NCBI GenBank assembly: GCA_003326205.1
Contig: LWTK01000105.1
Coordinates: 124,001 to 188,000 of the forward strand
Length of the DNA stretch: 64,000 nucleotides
DNA from: Nostoc sp. ATCC 43529
GTDB taxonomy: Bacteria; Cyanobacteriota; Cyanobacteriia; Cyanobacteriales; Nostocaceae
Reading direction: 5' to 3'
Shown: positions 42,993-49,842 of the stretch, in pieces
How positions within the stretch are numbered: the stretch's first letter is position 1
Layout of the letters: each line of letters begins with the position of its first letter
Program-made: the position numbers and the translations under genes
The notes under the pieces: generated by a model
Database searches by the model: none
What the model was told of the DNA's origin: nothing
The model's input: only the letters and a program-made list of their open reading frames with translations

Positions 42993-43580
42993 CTACATAA
43001 TATCCTCTAAATTCAACACAAATCTAGGTAGAACATCCTCCCCTGATAAACTAGTAGGATTGTTTAATATTTCTATATCTTTATCTGGACGATAAATTTC
43101 TACTCGCTTGTTTTTACGGTCGATTAACCAGCCTAATTGAGCGCCATTTTCGATATATTCCTGCATTTTCTCCTGCAAATCTTTTAAAGAATCGCTAGGA
43201 GAACGTAATTCTACTACAAAATCAGGAGAAATCGGAGCAAATTTTTCTTGTTTTTCTGGAGTTAAAGCATTCCACCGCTCAATTTTTACCCAAGAAATAT
43301 CAGGAGAACGTTCTGCACCATTGGGTAGGGTAAAGCCACTTGAAGAGTCAAAACCTTTGCCTAGTCTAGTCTGTTTATTCCAGATTCCTAACTCAACAGC
43401 CATATCAAAGTTACGGTTGCCAGTATCACTACCTGTAGGTGGCATAATTAATAATTCCCCTGATGCTGTACGCTCAAATCGATAATCGCGGTTTTGTTGG
43501 CAGATTTGGAAAAATTGGTCGTCAGTTAAGTCAATTTTCAATTTGAGGGTAGGAGGTAAGGCGACTGTAGTAGCTTTCAT
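42993..43580 (-). CDS. Uma2-family (DUF820) putative endonuclease
   Basis: The 195-residue protein shows the second common form of the family: LTDDQFFQICQQNRDYRFERTASGELLIMPPTG, then RSPDISWV, PDFVVELRSPSD and ENGAQLGWLIDRKNKRVEIYRP. The acidic PDFVVE and ELRS core matches the PD-(D/E)XK fold. It is a distant paralogue of the gene at 28072. It lies between the unknown 476-residue gene and the ImmA/IrrE gene but has its own spacing (about 90 bases), so any link to the defence module is only positional. Confidence 0.87.
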   Translation of the reverse strand: MKATTVALPPTLKLKIDLTDDQFFQICQQNRDYRFERTASGELLIMPPTGSDTGNRNFDMAVELGIWNKQTRLGKGFDSSSGFTLPNGAERSPDISWVKIERWNALTPEKQEKFAPISPDFVVELRSPSDSLKDLQEKMQEYIENGAQLGWLIDRKNKRVEIYRPDKDIEILNNPTSLSGEDVLPRFVLNLEDIM

Positions 43581-43669: not shown

Positions 43670-44326
43670 TTATTTTTTCCGAATAGGCGCAGCCTTACCC
43701 AAATAAATTGTCTTGTCACCTGGAGGAAGAATAATCCAATTTAGCTGTACTAGACGAACTTTAAGATTAGTTATTGTGACACCCAAATCCTTTTGCATTG
43801 CATAAAGATGAGACCATTTTGTTAAATCACGTTCTGTTGCCATTTGTTCTAAAATAGAATGAGGCATCAGTAAATAACTCGCAAAACGTTGAGCTTGCAA
43901 CTCCATTTTTTGCAGTTGACCACTAACAGCACGGCATAAAAAAGGCTGCATATCTATTTCACTTTTACCACCCTGCTTCATCAGTTCTTCAAACTGACCA
44001 GCCGTCTTTTGGTCAATATGTAGTTCCCAGTGTCCCAGCTCATGAGCTAGCGTTGATTCTTCAAACCCTTTGGGAAGTTTCAAAATATCTTCATTGATTT
44101 CAATTAAATGCTCCAATGGCAAAATCCTCGCTGCTATTTGTCCTTCAGCATCAGGCGGTATCCTATCCCAAACAACATTCAACCCTAAAAACTCTGCCAC
44201 ACGAGTTGCATCTAAAGGCCACTTGGGAATATATTTGGGTGTTTCCTGCATACGCTTGAGAATATTATTAGCTCTAGCCTCAATTTCGCTATCAGGAATA
44301 TAGCGATACCGCTTGATGATACTCAA
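43670..44326 (-). CDS. ImmA/IrrE-family metallopeptidase
   Basis: COG2856 proteins cleave a partner XRE repressor when activated, as ImmA does with ImmR in ICEBs1 and IrrE with DdrO in Deinococcus. The 218-residue protein has STLAHELGHWELHID (HExxH zinc site, about residues 85-95) and an ASYLLMPHSILEQM block typical of the family. Its TTG start overlaps the stop of the XRE gene by four bases, so the two are translationally coupled. The pair is divergent from the Cas4-like/Argonaute operon. Proteolytic control of that operon is an inference from arrangement and operators. Confidence 0.9.
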   Translation of the reverse strand: MSIIKRYRYIPDSEIEARANNILKRMQETPKYIPKWPLDATRVAEFLGLNVVWDRIPPDAEGQIAARILPLEHLIEINEDILKLPKGFEESTLAHELGHWELHIDQKTAGQFEELMKQGGKSEIDMQPFLCRAVSGQLQKMELQAQRFASYLLMPHSILEQMATERDLTKWSHLYAMQKDLGVTITNLKVRLVQLNWIILPPGDKTIYLGKAAPIRKK

Positions 44327-44679
44327 CCTTGCTTCTCCTCATTTTCTGGTTGTGTAGCTTCTCGAAAGACTCTTTTTGCAAAATCAGGATTCTCCTGCAT
44401 TCGACGGAACAAAGCAGGCATTGTCTTGTAATGTTGCTTGAGAAAATCTTCGTCACGCTGGGGAATACGACCAGCTGAAAAAATTAACTCTTCCTCATTT
44501 AAATCGAGATGCCGTGCTAGAGAACGAATGACATCTTCTTTTGGAGGATAATCCGCGCGATCGTTCTCTAATTTAGACAGATAAGTGAAATCTAGCCCTA
44601 TTAGTTTTGCTAGCTCACGCTGACTAAATCCCTTATCTTTGCGGGCTTCACGGATAAGCTGACCAAAACTTTGATTCAC
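44323..44679 (-). CDS. XRE-family repressor paired with ImmA/IrrE protease
   Basis: The 118-residue protein has a classic N-terminal HTH_3 domain (FGQLIREARKDKGFSQRELAKLIGLDFTYLSKLEND, read here in two parts at residues 5-40) and a helical C-terminal tail that could be the dimerisation and cleavage region. A sigma-70-like promoter for it lies at TTGATT (44731-44726) and TATCAT (44707-44702). The -35 box falls within the first of two TTGA-N8-TCAA repeats, which suggests autoregulation. The divergent genes are the nuclease and Argonaute. Confidence 0.9.
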   Translation of the reverse strand: MNQSFGQLIREARKDKGFSQRELAKLIGLDFTYLSKLENDRADYPPKEDVIRSLARHLDLNEEELIFSAGRIPQRDEDFLKQHYKTMPALFRRMQENPDFAKRVFREATQPENEEKQG

Positions 44680-44715
44680 TTTTTTTCCTACTTAACTAAA
44701 CATGATAACAGAGTG

Positions 44716-44764
44716 TTGACTAAAAAATCAATACACGTTAGGGTGTAGTTGAATAAAAAATCAA
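44716..44764. promoter_or_regulatory. Paired operators between the XRE gene and the Argonaute operon
   Basis: TTGACTAAAAAATCAA (44716-44731) and TTGAATAAAAAATCAA (44749-44764) differ at one base. Each is a TTGA-N8-TCAA dyad, and they are spaced 33 bases apart, about three helical turns. They fill the 108-base divergent intergenic region, overlap the -35 box of the XRE promoter and precede the nuclease gene start by 24 bases. This is the placement of a repressor switching both directions. Confidence 0.75.
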
Positions 44765-44787
44765 CAAAGCTAATAAGGATATAAATT

Positions 44788-45603
44788 ATGGTGTGGCGGC
44801 CGTATGTGAGTTTTAACATTTGGTCACAGTTCGCTTCATCTGTTGGACAAGAATATTTGCATTGTGATATGAAACGAGGTTTTTCCAGAGCGCGAAAAAA
44901 AGAATCATTAGTTAAAGCATTATTGGAGCAAGACACTATTCCTCAACATATCGGTTTGCATGCACAGAAGGGCATTTACGAATTTCACCAAAATATTCAA
45001 CTTTTGAACCAATCAAATGGTGTAGAGATAGTAGCAGAGAAGCTGAAATTAGACCAAGAGCCTGTCGAAGTTAAGCAGCGAATTATTAAAATTTTGACCA
45101 ATTACTATCAGGAGCCAATTCTCTCTGGAAAGAACATCCTTAAATTTAGTCGAGGTGATGAGGGAATTCCAGAACCAATCCTGATTCAGCAAGGTCATTA
45201 TTTTTTTAACTTGTTTGTAGCTATTGATTGCATTTTTATTGAATCAGACAGCAGACTGCAAATTTTAGATTTTAAAACAGGCACATCTAATTTTGATAGG
45301 CGACAAGCATTTGTTTACCTGTTGGCAGCTACTTATATGTTCCCTGGACAAAAAGCTGTTGCTTCATTTTATAACTTAGAAACTAGCAAATGGTCTGAGC
45401 CTATTACTGCTACAGATATTCAACTCAAGGCAATTCAAGCTAAATTAGCCCAAATAGCACAAGAACATCAAAAAGAACTACGTCGTTACAAGCAAAATAA
45501 ATCTGCATTTGCTGAAATATTTCCTGCTAATCCTGGAATAGCCTGTCGAAATTGTCAATTCACATCGATTTGCCAATTTAATTCATTGGAGGTTTCTGCA
45601 TGA
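44788..45603 (+). CDS. Cas4/RecB-like PD-(D/E)XK nuclease associated with Argonaute
   Basis: The 271-residue protein has the RecB/Cas4 nuclease core: an acidic residue in AIDCIFIES, the LQILDFKTGTS motif (D-x-K) and a following QAFVYLLAATYMF helix with the conserved Q and Y. Cysteines are placed one near the N-terminus (EYLHCDM) and three at the C-terminus (CRNCQFTSIC), the pattern that binds a 4Fe-4S cluster in Cas4 and AddB. AAGGA lies eight bases before the ATG. Its stop overlaps the Argonaute start (ATGA). Cas4-like nucleases are known neighbours of some long prokaryotic Argonautes. A role in generating or processing guide or target DNA is inferred. Confidence 0.85.
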   Translation: MVWRPYVSFNIWSQFASSVGQEYLHCDMKRGFSRARKKESLVKALLEQDTIPQHIGLHAQKGIYEFHQNIQLLNQSNGVEIVAEKLKLDQEPVEVKQRIIKILTNYYQEPILSGKNILKFSRGDEGIPEPILIQQGHYFFNLFVAIDCIFIESDSRLQILDFKTGTSNFDRRQAFVYLLAATYMFPGQKAVASFYNLETSKWSEPITATDIQLKAIQAKLAQIAQEHQKELRRYKQNKSAFAEIFPANPGIACRNCQFTSICQFNSLEVSA

Positions 45604-47813
45604 CTATTGCTATTGCATCTTCCCAAATTTCTACCTCTTTTAGCGAAGTTTTCCCAATCACAACTTCACAACTTAAGTTGATGTGTTTTCGGCTAACACC
45701 TGAGATTGATAAAAAAGATGGCAATCGATTGAGCTATCATTTTAGTCGAAAATTACCTGAGACTGTTGTCATCTGGTACAAGCCTTATTTTTGGGTTTTG
45801 GCAGCATCTCATAAAGATTTACCTAGTAAAGAAGAATTACAAGAGGCACTAAAAAACATTCAAAATGAAGTAGAAGATTTTAAGGAACGCTTATTCGGTT
45901 TCCAAGCAGTACGCCAGCCTCAACCCACACCTTTTATTCATTCTCTGCTATCTCTTCAGATTTTGAATAAAACTAAATTTAATTCTCCAGTTGTTCTGTC
46001 TGATAATGGAGTTATAGTCAGAAGAGAACCAGATTTTTGGTCAGAAACGATCGAATTACAAGGTGAGTTACAGCCTGCTCTTAGTTTGACAGTGTGCAGT
46101 AGCATTGTCTTTCGTGATAATTTAGCTGAGTTCTACGAAAAACATCCTCAACGGCAAAACTCAGAACAGCTTTTAATTGGTTTAAAAGTTCAAGAAATTG
46201 AACGAGGTAGTAACGCAACAATTGTCGGTATTATTGGAACTATCGAAGAGCATAGAGATGAACTATTAGCAAAAGCTACCGGTTCAACTAGTAAACAAGC
46301 ACTACGAGATGCCCCAAACAATCAACCTGTTGTTGCTGTACAGTTCGGTAAAGATACAAAACAGTTTCACTATGCTATGGCAGCTTTACGTCCCTGTGTT
46401 ACATCTGCCACAGCCGATCAATTTGAAGTTGAATACGGAAAGCTACTTAAGGCTACTAAAATTTCCCATCAAGACAGAACAAGTCTGTTGACATCTTATA
46501 AAAAAATAGCAGCAGACGCTTTAAGTATTTATGGAATTCAACTAGAACGTAGTATCAATAGCATTCAACATCCAAATTTATTCTGGAAACCTGAATTTCC
46601 TATAGAGGAAACTGCTCTACTTTTTGGTAATAACTTTATAACCAAAAGAAGTGATGTTCTAAATGGTCTTAAAAAAGGTGGAGTTTATCGCCGTCACATT
46701 GATTTTAAAGATAAATCCAAAGTTATTCAGATTGCAGCACTAAAGCTTTGTGATTTAAAAGTAGATCCGTTTCTGAATTTACTTAAGCAGCGTCTGGAAC
46801 TATATGGATTTAAAAGTGAAGTTATTACTAAGCAAGCTTTGTCACTGAATAATCTGACTAAGACTGAGGCAAGAGCAGAAGTTGAGAAGAAAGTCAATGA
46901 ATTAATTGAGATACCACACGACATTGTTGTAACTTTTTTACCTCAAAGCGATCGTCATGAGGATGATACAAATGAGGGAAGTTTCTACCATCAAATATAT
47001 TCTTTATTGCTCCGTCGTCAAATTGCTAGCCAAATGATTTATGAAGATACTTTGAATAAACCTGGAAATTACCAGTATATCTTGAATCAGGTAATTCCAG
47101 GAATTCTAGCAAAGTTAGGCAATTTGCCTTTCGTTCTAGCTGAAGACTTAAAAGATGCTGATTATTTTATTGGCTTGGATGTTTCTAGAATTTCCAAAAA
47201 AAGGCAAGCAGGTACAAGAAATGCCTGTGCTAGTATACGTCTCTATGGCAAACAAGGGGAGTTTGTTCGTTATCAACTAGAAGATGATTTAATTGATGGT
47301 GAAGAAATACCACCTAAACTATTGGAGCGATTATTACCTGCTGCTGAGTTAGCAAACAAAACAGTCTTAATTTATCGTGATGGTTCCTTTGTTGGAAATG
47401 AAGCTGATTATTTAGTAGATAGAGCTAAGGCAATAGGAGCTAAATTTATTTTGGTGGAATGTAAAAAATCTGGTATTCCGCGATTGTATGACTTAAAGCA
47501 GAAAGCTGTCATAGCACCTTCACAAGGCTTAGGACTTCGTTTGTCATCTCGTGAAGCAATTTTGGTAACAACTAAAGTTCCTGATAAAGTTGGTTTGGCT
47601 CGTCCTATACGTTTAACAATTCATGAGAAAGGACACCAAATCTCAATAGAAAGTGTTTTAGAAACCACTCTAAAACTTACGTTATTGCATCATGGAGCTT
47701 TAAAAGAACCTCGCTTACCTATGCCATTATATGGGTCTGACCGCATGGCTTATCTGCGTTTGCAAGGTATTCGTCCTAGTCGCATGGAAGGCGATCGCCA
47801 GTTTTGGTTATAG
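45600..47813 (+). CDS. Long prokaryotic Argonaute with intact catalytic tetrad
   Basis: pAgo proteins use small nucleic-acid guides to cut or bind invading DNA. The 737-residue length fits a long pAgo with N, PAZ-like, MID and PIWI regions. The MID domain (about 435-515) has the 5'-phosphate pocket residues in FYHQIYSLL, LRRQIASQ and ILAKLGN (Tyr463, Gln478, Lys505). The PIWI domain has Asp527 (GLDVS), Glu561, Asp594 (YRDG) and Asp714 (YGSDR). Spacings of 34, 33 and 120 residues match the DEDD tetrad of active pAgos, so cleavage is likely retained. GGAGG precedes the ATG. It is cotranscribed with the Cas4-like nuclease. Synechococcus elongatus Ago is the nearest characterised cyanobacterial type I can name. 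Confidence 0.93.
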   Translation: MTIAIASSQISTSFSEVFPITTSQLKLMCFRLTPEIDKKDGNRLSYHFSRKLPETVVIWYKPYFWVLAASHKDLPSKEELQEALKNIQNEVEDFKERLFGFQAVRQPQPTPFIHSLLSLQILNKTKFNSPVVLSDNGVIVRREPDFWSETIELQGELQPALSLTVCSSIVFRDNLAEFYEKHPQRQNSEQLLIGLKVQEIERGSNATIVGIIGTIEEHRDELLAKATGSTSKQALRDAPNNQPVVAVQFGKDTKQFHYAMAALRPCVTSATADQFEVEYGKLLKATKISHQDRTSLLTSYKKIAADALSIYGIQLERSINSIQHPNLFWKPEFPIEETALLFGNNFITKRSDVLNGLKKGGVYRRHIDFKDKSKVIQIAALKLCDLKVDPFLNLLKQRLELYGFKSEVITKQALSLNNLTKTEARAEVEKKVNELIEIPHDIVVTFLPQSDRHEDDTNEGSFYHQIYSLLLRRQIASQMIYEDTLNKPGNYQYILNQVIPGILAKLGNLPFVLAEDLKDADYFIGLDVSRISKKRQAGTRNACASIRLYGKQGEFVRYQLEDDLIDGEEIPPKLLERLLPAAELANKTVLIYRDGSFVGNEADYLVDRAKAIGAKFILVECKKSGIPRLYDLKQKAVIAPSQGLGLRLSSREAILVTTKVPDKVGLARPIRLTIHEKGHQISIESVLETTLKLTLLHHGALKEPRLPMPLYGSDRMAYLRLQGIRPSRMEGDRQFWL

Positions 47814-47850: not shown

Positions 47851-49842
47851 TTAAGAAATAGGCACTGCAACCGGAACCGTAAAATGAAACTCGCTACCCT
47901 GATTTTTTCCTAGAGACTCAGCCCAAATTTTACCTCCCAAATTATCAATAATTCGCCGACAAATCGCCAAACCAAGTCCCGCACCACCTACAGTGCGTTG
48001 CAAAAATCCTTCTTCCTGATAAAAACGCTCAAAGATAGTTTCTAGTCGGCTCGGTTCAATCCCTCGACCTGTATCTGCAATAGTAATTTTTAACACAGAT
48101 GTTTTCTGTAATTTTCCTAAAGCTGGGTCAACTTCTTTTGGATTCAAGAGGTCTGCACGAATGGTAACTTGTCCGCTCTTGTCAGTAAACTTACAGGCAT
48201 TATCCAGTAACTTTGTTAAAACTTCAATCAGCCCTTCTCCATCTACCTGGATTGGCGGTAAGTAATGCGGTAATTCTACGACGATTTTAGGCAATTTCTG
48301 ACGGGATTCGAGTCCGCTGAGGGCTAAATCTAGGTATTCTTGAAGGGATATTGGTTCGATTTGCCAGCGCACCAATCCGCCCTCTAAACGAGATAAGGTA
48401 ATAAAATCTTGGATTAGTTTACGTAACCGATCCGCATCGTCTAAAGCCGCTTGTAACATGGTTTGCTGCAAGTCGAGCGGCATTTGTGGTTCTGTAATTA
48501 AACTTTCTAAGCAAACGCGGATGGTAGATAAAGGAGTACGTAGTTCATGTCCAACGATCGCAATTAAGTTACTTTGGGTGCGCTCCAAGTCTACCAGTTG
48601 ACGATTCAAAGTTTCTAAGTTGCTGTAAGCTTTTGCTTGCATTAAAGCAACTCCAACCTGTGTGGCGATCGCCTCTACTAACGTTACATCATCTTCTGTC
48701 CACAAATGAGCCTCTGGCTGATGCAGTTCTAACATTCCCAGCCAAGTCCCCTGATAGCAAATCGGTACCAATAAGCAAGCACGGATCTGCCAACGCACCA
48801 ATTGGGCTTTTAATTCTGGATGGGATTGTAAGCCAAAATCCTGGTTGATATCAGCAATAACTATAGTTTGCCATCGGTTTTCGTCCTGAGTTTGACTTGG
48901 TGATAAAGCAGTTTGAAATAGCGGGTGGCTTGCTAATGACCAAATTTCTCCCTTTAAAGATGCCAATCCTAAAGGTATTGATTCATAAACAATTGGCTGT
49001 TGTTGACTATTTGGTTGATAAATATAAACTAAACACCGACATTCGCTAAAAACTTCACCTAGTTCTTTAACAGTAACACTCAGAATCTCTTCTGGATTCA
49101 AAGAGCGGCGAATAGTAGTAGCGATCGCATTAATCAAACGCTCTTTTCGCTCTTTGCTAGCTATAGTACGATAAGCTTTCAGCAGCCTGTATTGACTAGC
49201 TTGTAGATATGTGACTAAGCGGTTAGCAAATAGTCTAAAGTCAATTCCTAGTGTTTTATTTCTTGATATCTGTACTTGCGATTTTTGCAAAAGTCGATAA
49301 CGTCTATGCGCTCGCTGAATTTTAGGAGCAAGTTCTGGTCGATAAGTCAGAATTCGCTCCAATAATAGGCGGGCAGCCTGAATAGAAACTTGGGGGTCAA
49401 ATGTCCAAATCCCCTGAAATTGCCTTGCTTGGTCTAGGGATGCTGAATCTACCGATGAACGATGTTCTCGACAAATTAGGCACGCTGAATATAGCTGACT
49501 AATTACAATCAAATGCCATTCCTGAGCTAATTCGTCATTAGGGGCAAAAGGAATGGTTGTGTAAGGGGTTGAAACCATACCAAAGTCGCTCTCTGGTGCA
49601 GCTAATACATAAACCTGGTCTGTATGCTGAGCAATTTTTTCATAGCGAGGAATCTCCTGGCGATAAAAACGCTCCTGCTGAAAATTCGCAATCACTAGGG
49701 GTTGATCTGTCGCTCCCAGTACCAGGTCTTCTATTGCGTGAGAAAGAGCTGTTAATGAAGACTTGAAATAGATTTGAGGTTTTAGATCCGGTAGGACTTG
49801 GCACAAATCTTCTAACAAGGAATTGGAATTAGAAACAGTCAT
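47851..49842 (-). CDS. Sensor histidine kinase: DICT-GAF-HisKA-HATPase
   Basis: The 663-residue protein has an N-terminal DICT-type sensory domain (about 20-150: YFKSSLTALSHAIEDLV, FQQERFYRQEIPRYEKIA, EWHLIVISQLYSACLICRE), a GAF domain (about 235-400), and a complete kinase core: GHELRTPLSTIRVCLESL with the phosphoacceptor histidine, DNACKFT, ADTGRGIEPSRLETIFERFYQ and GGAGLGLAICRRI. It has no transmembrane segment, so it is a cytoplasmic sensor. The gene at 55871-57880 is a full-length paralogue. No response regulator is adjacent. It is convergent with the Argonaute gene, with 37 bases between stops. Confidence 0.92.
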   Translation of the reverse strand: MTVSNSNSLLEDLCQVLPDLKPQIYFKSSLTALSHAIEDLVLGATDQPLVIANFQQERFYRQEIPRYEKIAQHTDQVYVLAAPESDFGMVSTPYTTIPFAPNDELAQEWHLIVISQLYSACLICREHRSSVDSASLDQARQFQGIWTFDPQVSIQAARLLLERILTYRPELAPKIQRAHRRYRLLQKSQVQISRNKTLGIDFRLFANRLVTYLQASQYRLLKAYRTIASKERKERLINAIATTIRRSLNPEEILSVTVKELGEVFSECRCLVYIYQPNSQQQPIVYESIPLGLASLKGEIWSLASHPLFQTALSPSQTQDENRWQTIVIADINQDFGLQSHPELKAQLVRWQIRACLLVPICYQGTWLGMLELHQPEAHLWTEDDVTLVEAIATQVGVALMQAKAYSNLETLNRQLVDLERTQSNLIAIVGHELRTPLSTIRVCLESLITEPQMPLDLQQTMLQAALDDADRLRKLIQDFITLSRLEGGLVRWQIEPISLQEYLDLALSGLESRQKLPKIVVELPHYLPPIQVDGEGLIEVLTKLLDNACKFTDKSGQVTIRADLLNPKEVDPALGKLQKTSVLKITIADTGRGIEPSRLETIFERFYQEEGFLQRTVGGAGLGLAICRRIIDNLGGKIWAESLGKNQGSEFHFTVPVAVPIS

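Follow-up and report, generated by a model that had tools for sequence, protein, structure and literature searches.

The window analyzed in this study, a 64-kb stretch of DNA from Nostoc sp. ATCC 43529 (genome of 8.46 Mb; nearest named relatives Mojavia, Atlanticothrix and Westiellopsis), contains a module of four genes arranged as two divergent pairs (Table 1). One pair encodes a predicted XRE-family repressor and an ImmA/IrrE-type metalloprotease, and the other a Cas4-like nuclease and a long prokaryotic Argonaute (pAgo). The genes of each pair overlap by 4 bases (the XRE stop with the TTG start of ImmA, and the TGA of the nuclease with the ATG of pAgo), and a gap of 108 bp separates the XRE and nuclease genes. 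This layout had been described in an earlier reading of the sequence alone (the first-pass annotation), and the coordinates of the four open reading frames (ORFs) and the results of family scans agree with it. Taken together, the sequence data presented below suggest that the XRE protein very probably represses the nuclease-pAgo operon, and that the protease lifts this repression.

Table 1. Features of the four-gene module (borders 43670 and 47813) and its immediate neighbors; positions are those of the window.
Feature	Position	Strand	Description
ImmA/IrrE (M78)-type metalloprotease	43670..44326	-	218 aa; HELGH at residues 95-99 and downstream E142
XRE-family repressor (predicted)	44323..44679	-	118 aa; N-terminal helix-turn-helix (HTH) and three short C-terminal helices
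Divergent gap	44680..44787		between XRE and nuclease genes
Predicted XRE promoter	44702..44731	-	-35 TTGATT inside operator 1 (opposite strand), 18-bp spacer, TATCAT
Candidate operator 1	44716..44731		TTGACTAAAAAATCAA; first site 34-40 bp from XRE start in many relatives
Predicted nuclease-pAgo promoter	44716..44744	+	-35 TTGACT inside operator 1, 17-bp spacer, weak -10 TAGGGT
Candidate operator 2	44749..44764		TTGAATAAAAAATCAA; arms GTTGA/TCAAC at 44748-44765
Cas4-like PD-(D/E)XK nuclease	44788..45603	+	271 aa; cysteines 26, 253, 256, 262; D147/D161/K163
Long pAgo	45600..47813	+	737 aa; DEDX tetrad D527, E569, D594, D714
Uma2-family putative endonuclease	42993..43580		adjoins the module, outside it
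DICT-CHASE6-GAF histidine kinase	47851..49842		adjoins the module, outside it

The protease matched Pfam family Peptidase_M78 (PF06114; 32 bits, above the curated cut-off of 22) and the PADLOC profile capP (57.9 bits), while the XRE protein matched HTH_3 (48.7 bits) and PADLOC capH (45 bits, with HTH_VI close behind at 43.2). The best matches of the nuclease were PDDEXK_1 (40.3 bits) and PADLOC Aga_Cas4-like_Nuc (468 bits), and those of pAgo were Piwi (49 bits) and PADLOC pAgo_II (1258 bits). An NCBIfam scan of the four proteins gave no model at or above its cut-off.

Residues H95, E96, H99 and E142 of the window protease correspond to the HExxH peptidase motif and its downstream Glu. The motif is kept in 73 of 74 aligned ImmA rows, the window included (L117 has HEIGY), as is the downstream Glu (the gene of L068 is split by a stop). 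The D/D/K residues and the four cysteines of the nuclease are all present in 72 of 72 rows, again including that of the window. The pAgo tetrad was located from the catalytic positions of solved pAgos aligned with it; across 74 rows (window included) the four positions hold D in 74, E in 70, D in 74, and D in 67 with H in 6. Judged from this alignment, the tetrad of the window pAgo, a close relative of 9iad (913 bits, residues 11-737), is intact.

The structural model of the XRE protein (pLDDT 82) consists of 5+3 helices and fits the N-terminal domain of CapH (7t5u) with a TMt of 0.88 and a root-mean-square deviation of 1.5, although many HTH proteins fit similarly. The protease model, built from five rows, was weak (pLDDT 47.5), and none of its Foldseek matches fell below E 0.001, with selecases ranked at the top and CapP 14th. 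CapP (7t5t) was the best PDB sequence match to the protease, itself a weak one (E 0.025 for the single sequence, 2.8e-4 with the five-row profile).

Analysis of the distribution of the module revealed pAgo relatives in 40 of 388 genomes of the class and 88 of 388 genomes of the order (overlapping samples), and in four named contigs. The 85 loci that were read comprise 80 fetched from the match rows, the four named contigs and the window; short fragments, distant matches and further near-full-length ones (e.g. G539, G556, G586, G625, G432, G547, G609) were not fetched. These loci are not all independent (L037 and L086 appear to represent one locus, and L034 and L035 are nearly identical). A Cas4-like gene lies upstream of pAgo on the same strand in 76 of the 85, and 54 of these 76 keep a divergent XRE-ImmA pair upstream, both proteins scoring at least 80 bits. 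In one more (L102) XRE is present and the ImmA match lies just beyond the fetched piece. Among the 75 loci with a pAgo of at least 500 bits, 54 have the pair, 1 has XRE (L102) and 20 are without. The pair is kept in relatives whose pAgo is down to 47% identical to that of the window, and pAgo distances correlate with ImmA distances (r = 0.73, 44 loci; none of 1000 permutations as high) as they do with nuclease distances (r = 0.82, 44 loci). The linkage of XRE-ImmA to pAgo is therefore not due to chance, and the common occurrence of the four genes, which the first-pass annotation had proposed to look for, was found in most loci.

The divergent gap contains two palindromic sequences that may serve as operators for the XRE protein. 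In the 75 corresponding regions of the relatives the pattern TTG[AG]-N8/9-[CT]CAA occurs 135 times, compared to 3.2 expected occurrences and a maximum of 8 in 100 shuffles. At least one site is present in 50 of 55 pAgo-linked regions and in 19 of 20 regions of XRE-ImmA pairs that stand alone, i.e. without pAgo. Sites were found in 32 of 33 XRE-bearing loci with gaps of up to 230 bp, but in only 2 of 16 loci without XRE or remnants (Fisher 2.5e-9, relatedness ignored). The pair has decayed in four loci (L081, L090 and L123, with scored pieces of XRE or ImmA, and L082, assigned by eye since its upstream DNA resembles that of L081), and a site remains in three of them.

The candidate sites coincide with predicted promoters. 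Operator 1 overlaps a -35 hexamer on both strands, and thus one bound repressor should close both promoters, while operator 2 is placed just downstream of the -10 of the predicted nuclease-pAgo promoter. In the relatives, a TAnnnT sequence occurs 16-18 bp past the TTG hexamer of the operator in 51 of 69 operator-bearing regions, compared to 12 in local shuffles (the largest of 200 being 22). Neither promoter of the window is, by its sequence, strong by itself. The predicted XRE promoter has 9 of 12 consensus bases, and the scan that detected it gave 2 matches against a mean of 1.8 in shuffles, which proves nothing alone.

These features are consistent with a switch in which the XRE protein would bind the two operators (one to four elsewhere), the first containing the -35 elements of both promoters, that of nuclease-pAgo on one strand and that of XRE-ImmA on the opposite one, and the second lying just past the -10, so that a single repressor could shut both directions. 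The co-translated ImmA/IrrE-type protease, once activated, would inactivate XRE, probably by cleavage of its C-terminal part, and the nuclease-pAgo operon would be induced; the trigger would most likely be DNA damage or a signal derived from invader DNA. We regard this scheme as a whole, from repression of both promoters to release by the protease upon a DNA-type signal, as probable. It is improbable, more so than any other alternative considered here, that XRE activates or fine-tunes basal pAgo expression and that ImmA is a structural partner of XRE, not its protease. Sites over the -35 and just past the -10, like those in the gap, are typical of repression, and the near-invariant HExxH motif argues for a catalytic role of ImmA. 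A release by blocked oligomerisation without cleavage, which would suit such a structural role, has been proposed for XRE-IrrE pairs in the available text of one report (PMC12584617).

The idea that the XRE-ImmA pair is specific to pAgo was rejected. ImmA relatives occur in 182 of the 388 order genomes, and at least 94 genomes carry an ImmA relative without a pAgo relative. Twenty standalone loci, hand-picked from the list of ImmA relatives, were read, and in all of them ImmA is paired with XRE. In a tree of 65 of the 74 ImmA rows (after removal of 7 near-copies and of 2 rows whose length fell outside 150-330 aa; the root was not inferred) the pAgo-linked and standalone contexts are separated by 2 changes, compared to 17 in shuffles. 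Given so few changes, each context is stable and the association of the pair with pAgo looks old.

The genes facing the 20 standalone pairs include those for a coiled-coil protein (A1, 12 loci), a small protein (B1, 10 loci) and a protein of ~240 aa (B2, 8 loci). All three are present in L154, L156, L159 and L161, and none within the fetched stretch of L152 and L163. A UvrD-like helicase gene follows the facing operon in L144 and L145. Four proteins of the facing operons were scanned and gave no Pfam hit above the cut-off and no PADLOC match. In L195-L197 (L197 is from the genome of L161), a pair faces a row of five genes, encoding a small protein, proteins of ~240 and ~100 aa and two coiled-coil proteins (for example L195:2982-6873); in L195 and L196 another gene on the same strand lies behind the row. 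Related XRE-ImmA proteins and the same operators face a five-gene operon both in L195-L197 and in the four A1- and B1-containing loci.

This five-gene row corresponds in layout to arhA-E (ARTHROv5_10467-10471) of Limnospira indica PCC 8005, which, in the accessible parts of the reports, is upregulated 8-30 fold by gamma rays and is "very likely" controlled by the divergent XRE gene arhR (PMC8400943). The five genes are thought to be co-transcribed, divergently from the XRE gene, and the last two are described as SMC-like in one paper but only one of them in another (PMC8400943, PMC4398503, PMC4550399). The XRE gene itself was upregulated 2.55 and 2.78 fold, and the same source counts a sixth gamma-induced gene, 10472, which is PstS-like (PMC4398503).

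Comparison of the XRE proteins with their candidate operators suggested that the spacing of the half-sites follows one residue of the recognition helix. Proteins with F before the (T/S)YLSK motif are associated with N8 in 30 rows, with N9 in 2 and with no site in 3, whereas those with Y are associated with N9 in 32 rows, N8 in 1, both spacings in 1 and no site in 3; H occurs in 3 rows, with N9. As independent changes are few, this covariation is suggestive. As a lead only, a second ImmA gene elsewhere in the genome was found in none of 6 genomes of the F/N8 type and in 11 of 26 of the Y/N9 type (Fisher 0.07); this comparison omits genomes in which F goes with N9 or lacks a site (G413, G465 and G560) and genomes without a site, with N8 or mixed spacing, or with H at the F/Y position (G568, G585, G589, G628, G651, G652, G654 and G683).

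Several observations weigh against the proposed switch or its extension to relatives. The pair is absent, at the score limit used, from 21 of the 76 nuclease-pAgo loci (a set that includes L039, cut by a contig end, L122, with a distant pAgo, and the four decayed loci), and it is thus dispensable. No pattern site accompanies the pair in L069, L080, L085, L089, L100 and the standalone locus L155. The consensus scan missed the predicted nuclease-pAgo promoter, and the -10 of that promoter is weak in the window. The 64-kb window shows no enrichment of the motif TTGA-N8-TCAA (3 matches, 2 of them in the gap, compared to 2.64 expected), and GTTGA-N8-TCAAC is not enriched in the genome, where it occurs at 16 places, one in the gap, compared to 35 per strand in the backward-read control. 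The covariation of residue and spacing is broken by three F or Y rows with sites, a further row being mixed, and on supported branches it has 4 independent pairs, of which 2.9 agree on average and none disagree (sign test 0.25). Of the 20 standalone loci, only 4 combine a small-protein gene with a coiled-coil gene, and the match of L195-L197 to arhA-E is one of gene order and number only.

A set of sites spread through the genome of the window was rejected on the same kind of count, the strict operator TTGANNAAAAAATCAA occurring three times in 8.46 Mb, twice in the gap, compared to 5 for the backward-read control, together with the GTTGA-N8-TCAAC result.

The dispensability of the pair and its wide occurrence without pAgo would also fit a self-regulating mobile-element or toxin-antitoxin-like module that is a passenger beside pAgo. 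A mobile setting is indeed seen in one case: the whole module is carried by the Nostoc plasmid pCENA543b, typed as mobilizable, whose record itself annotates an ImmA/IrrE endopeptidase, an HTH regulator, a PD-(D/E)XK nuclease and a Piwi protein. Carriage by viruses was not indicated: in the phage set no relative of P0001 was found, and in the viral_contigs set none of P0001 or P0004 was confirmed by single-sequence queries, which detect close relatives only. A mere passenger is nevertheless unlikely, considering that the nuclease promoter has operator-like pairs over its -35 and behind its -10, that sites are mostly missing where XRE is missing, that pAgo-linked and standalone ImmA proteins cluster separately on the tree, and that the standalone pairs likewise face divergent operons bearing the same sites. 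The control of the pAgo operon by XRE-ImmA, raised in the first-pass annotation, is therefore strongly favored by the placement of the conserved sites over the promoter and by their lack in loci without XRE, while any exclusive tie of the pair to pAgo is not upheld.

As for the signal to which the switch would respond, DNA damage appears the likeliest, since close XRE-ImmA relatives with the same operators face an arh-like, gamma-induced layout, and the precedents of CapP and PprI point the same way. The protease offers a further point of doubt: at 218 aa (69 of 74 ImmA rows measure 205-251 aa) it aligns to the capP profile at positions 13-153 of 242 only, its C-terminal third being unmatched, and at this length it cannot accommodate a GAF-like domain at the C-terminus. 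The sensor may therefore differ from that of PprI, which, in the available text, needs such a domain for single-stranded DNA binding and activation (PMC10904395). A real switch driven by some other signal, such as a partner protein, a metabolite, nitrogen, a metal or the redox state, is possible but considerably less probable than the DNA-type trigger. It would accord with the missing GAF-like domain, and in ICEBs1 the ImmA protein is responsive to both RapI and RecA. In Anabaena, the XRE protein NsrX, paired with an IrrE-domain protease, is reported in the accessible text to bind nitrogen and heterocyst promoters (PMC12584617). In contrast, arh, which is apparently under the control of close relatives of the window pair, is described in the text available to us as strongly gamma-induced and unmoved by nitrogen deprivation or light/dark changes (PMC4550399).

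Other arrangements were noted around the nuclease-pAgo genes of the relatives. In L126-L129 a divergent gene for a protein of 491-492 aa replaces XRE-ImmA upstream of the Cas4-like gene. One such protein was scanned (L126) and contains an HTH, a weak PD-Lambda-2_B match and, by eye, HELWH. The DNA before the nuclease gene of these loci differs in its repeats, which by eye are ACACAACGA and TTGT, and a nucleotidyltransferase-like gene (by eye) lies beside the 491-492-aa gene in L127-L129. An MMADHC-like gene (193-223 aa) lies between the XRE-side operators and the nuclease gene in L065, L066, L067, L069, L070, L072, L073 and L074; the single protein scanned (L065) matched PF10229 with 43.7 bits. 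In 12 loci (L085, L087, L088, L089, L091, L093, L095, L097, L098, L099, L100 and L102) a gene for a conserved protein of ~73 aa, possibly a pAgo accessory protein, directly precedes the Cas4-like gene. In L089, L091, L100 and L108-L110 a single ORF matches both XRE and ImmA, and a separate ImmA gene lies beside it. The more distant pAgos of L120 and L121 have the Cas4-like gene downstream, and in L125 and L133, where XRE is absent, co-directional genes of nucleoside kinase and MazG type (by eye) precede the nuclease-pAgo genes.

To our knowledge the regulation of pAgo genes is poorly understood, and DNA-guided cutting, if constitutive, puts the host at risk. If the switch operates as proposed, this pAgo would be an induced defence that could look inactive in unstressed cultures, deletion of the XRE gene would offer a direct handle to turn it on, and pAgo immunity would be tied to the response of Limnospira to radiation, so far unexplained. 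A broader reading is conceivable, though we put it forward only tentatively and as falling somewhat short of probable: cyanobacteria may possess a LexA-independent, PprI-DdrO-like damage response based on compact GAF-less XRE-ImmA pairs and a TTGA-N8/9-TCAA operator, whose client is the arh operon in certain lineages and, through an old association, the nuclease-Argonaute operon in others. If so, guided DNA-cutting immunity would be deployed only when DNA is broken or invaded, and in genomes with both clients the difference in operator spacing (16 bp with Phe, 17 bp with Tyr in the recognition helix) would insulate the two copies of the switch.

The window module resembles several known systems. 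As in PprI (IrrE)-DdrO of Deinococcus, the protease has HExxH and a downstream Glu; it differs in lacking a GAF-like domain, in the XRE-ImmA genes adjoining their client, and in showing no sign of genome-wide sites in the genome of the window. In ArhR-arhABCDE an XRE gene likewise diverges from an operon, one induced by gamma rays, and the five-gene layout matches L195-L197 (by gene order only), but the client genes are neither pAgo nor nuclease, and the available parts of the published descriptions do not mention an ImmA partner. Long-A pAgos with Cas4-like partners and, as here, a kept tetrad have been noted before, the accessible text of these descriptions mentioning no XRE-ImmA control (PMC2743648, PMC6299218, PMC10653904), and lambda-repressor-like proteins are listed among pAgo-operon orthogroups (PMC6299218, in the part available). 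Another parallel is CapH-CapP, which controls CBASS and further immune operons and in which an HTH repressor gene likewise lies beside an M78-type peptidase gene and adjoins an immune operon (the pAgo operon being called immune by family resemblance), and capH and capP are the best PADLOC matches of the window pair. The client here is a pAgo-nuclease operon, the protease lacks the C-terminal part of CapP (218 aa versus 291 in 7t5t_A), and several other HTH proteins match the HTH fold at least as well as CapH does. Because the capP profile is matched over little more than half of its length, the pair is, by sequence, CapH-CapP-like and not a member of that system. The literature searched (no preprints, few subscription journals) contained no report of a pAgo controlled by XRE-ImmA or CapH-CapP, so the statement in the first-pass annotation that no such case had been described stands for pAgo, but not for immune operons in general, whose control by CapH-CapP has been published (PMC13373217, in the text available). 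The kind of control is thus a known one, and the pAgo operon is, as far as the literature searched extends, its new client.

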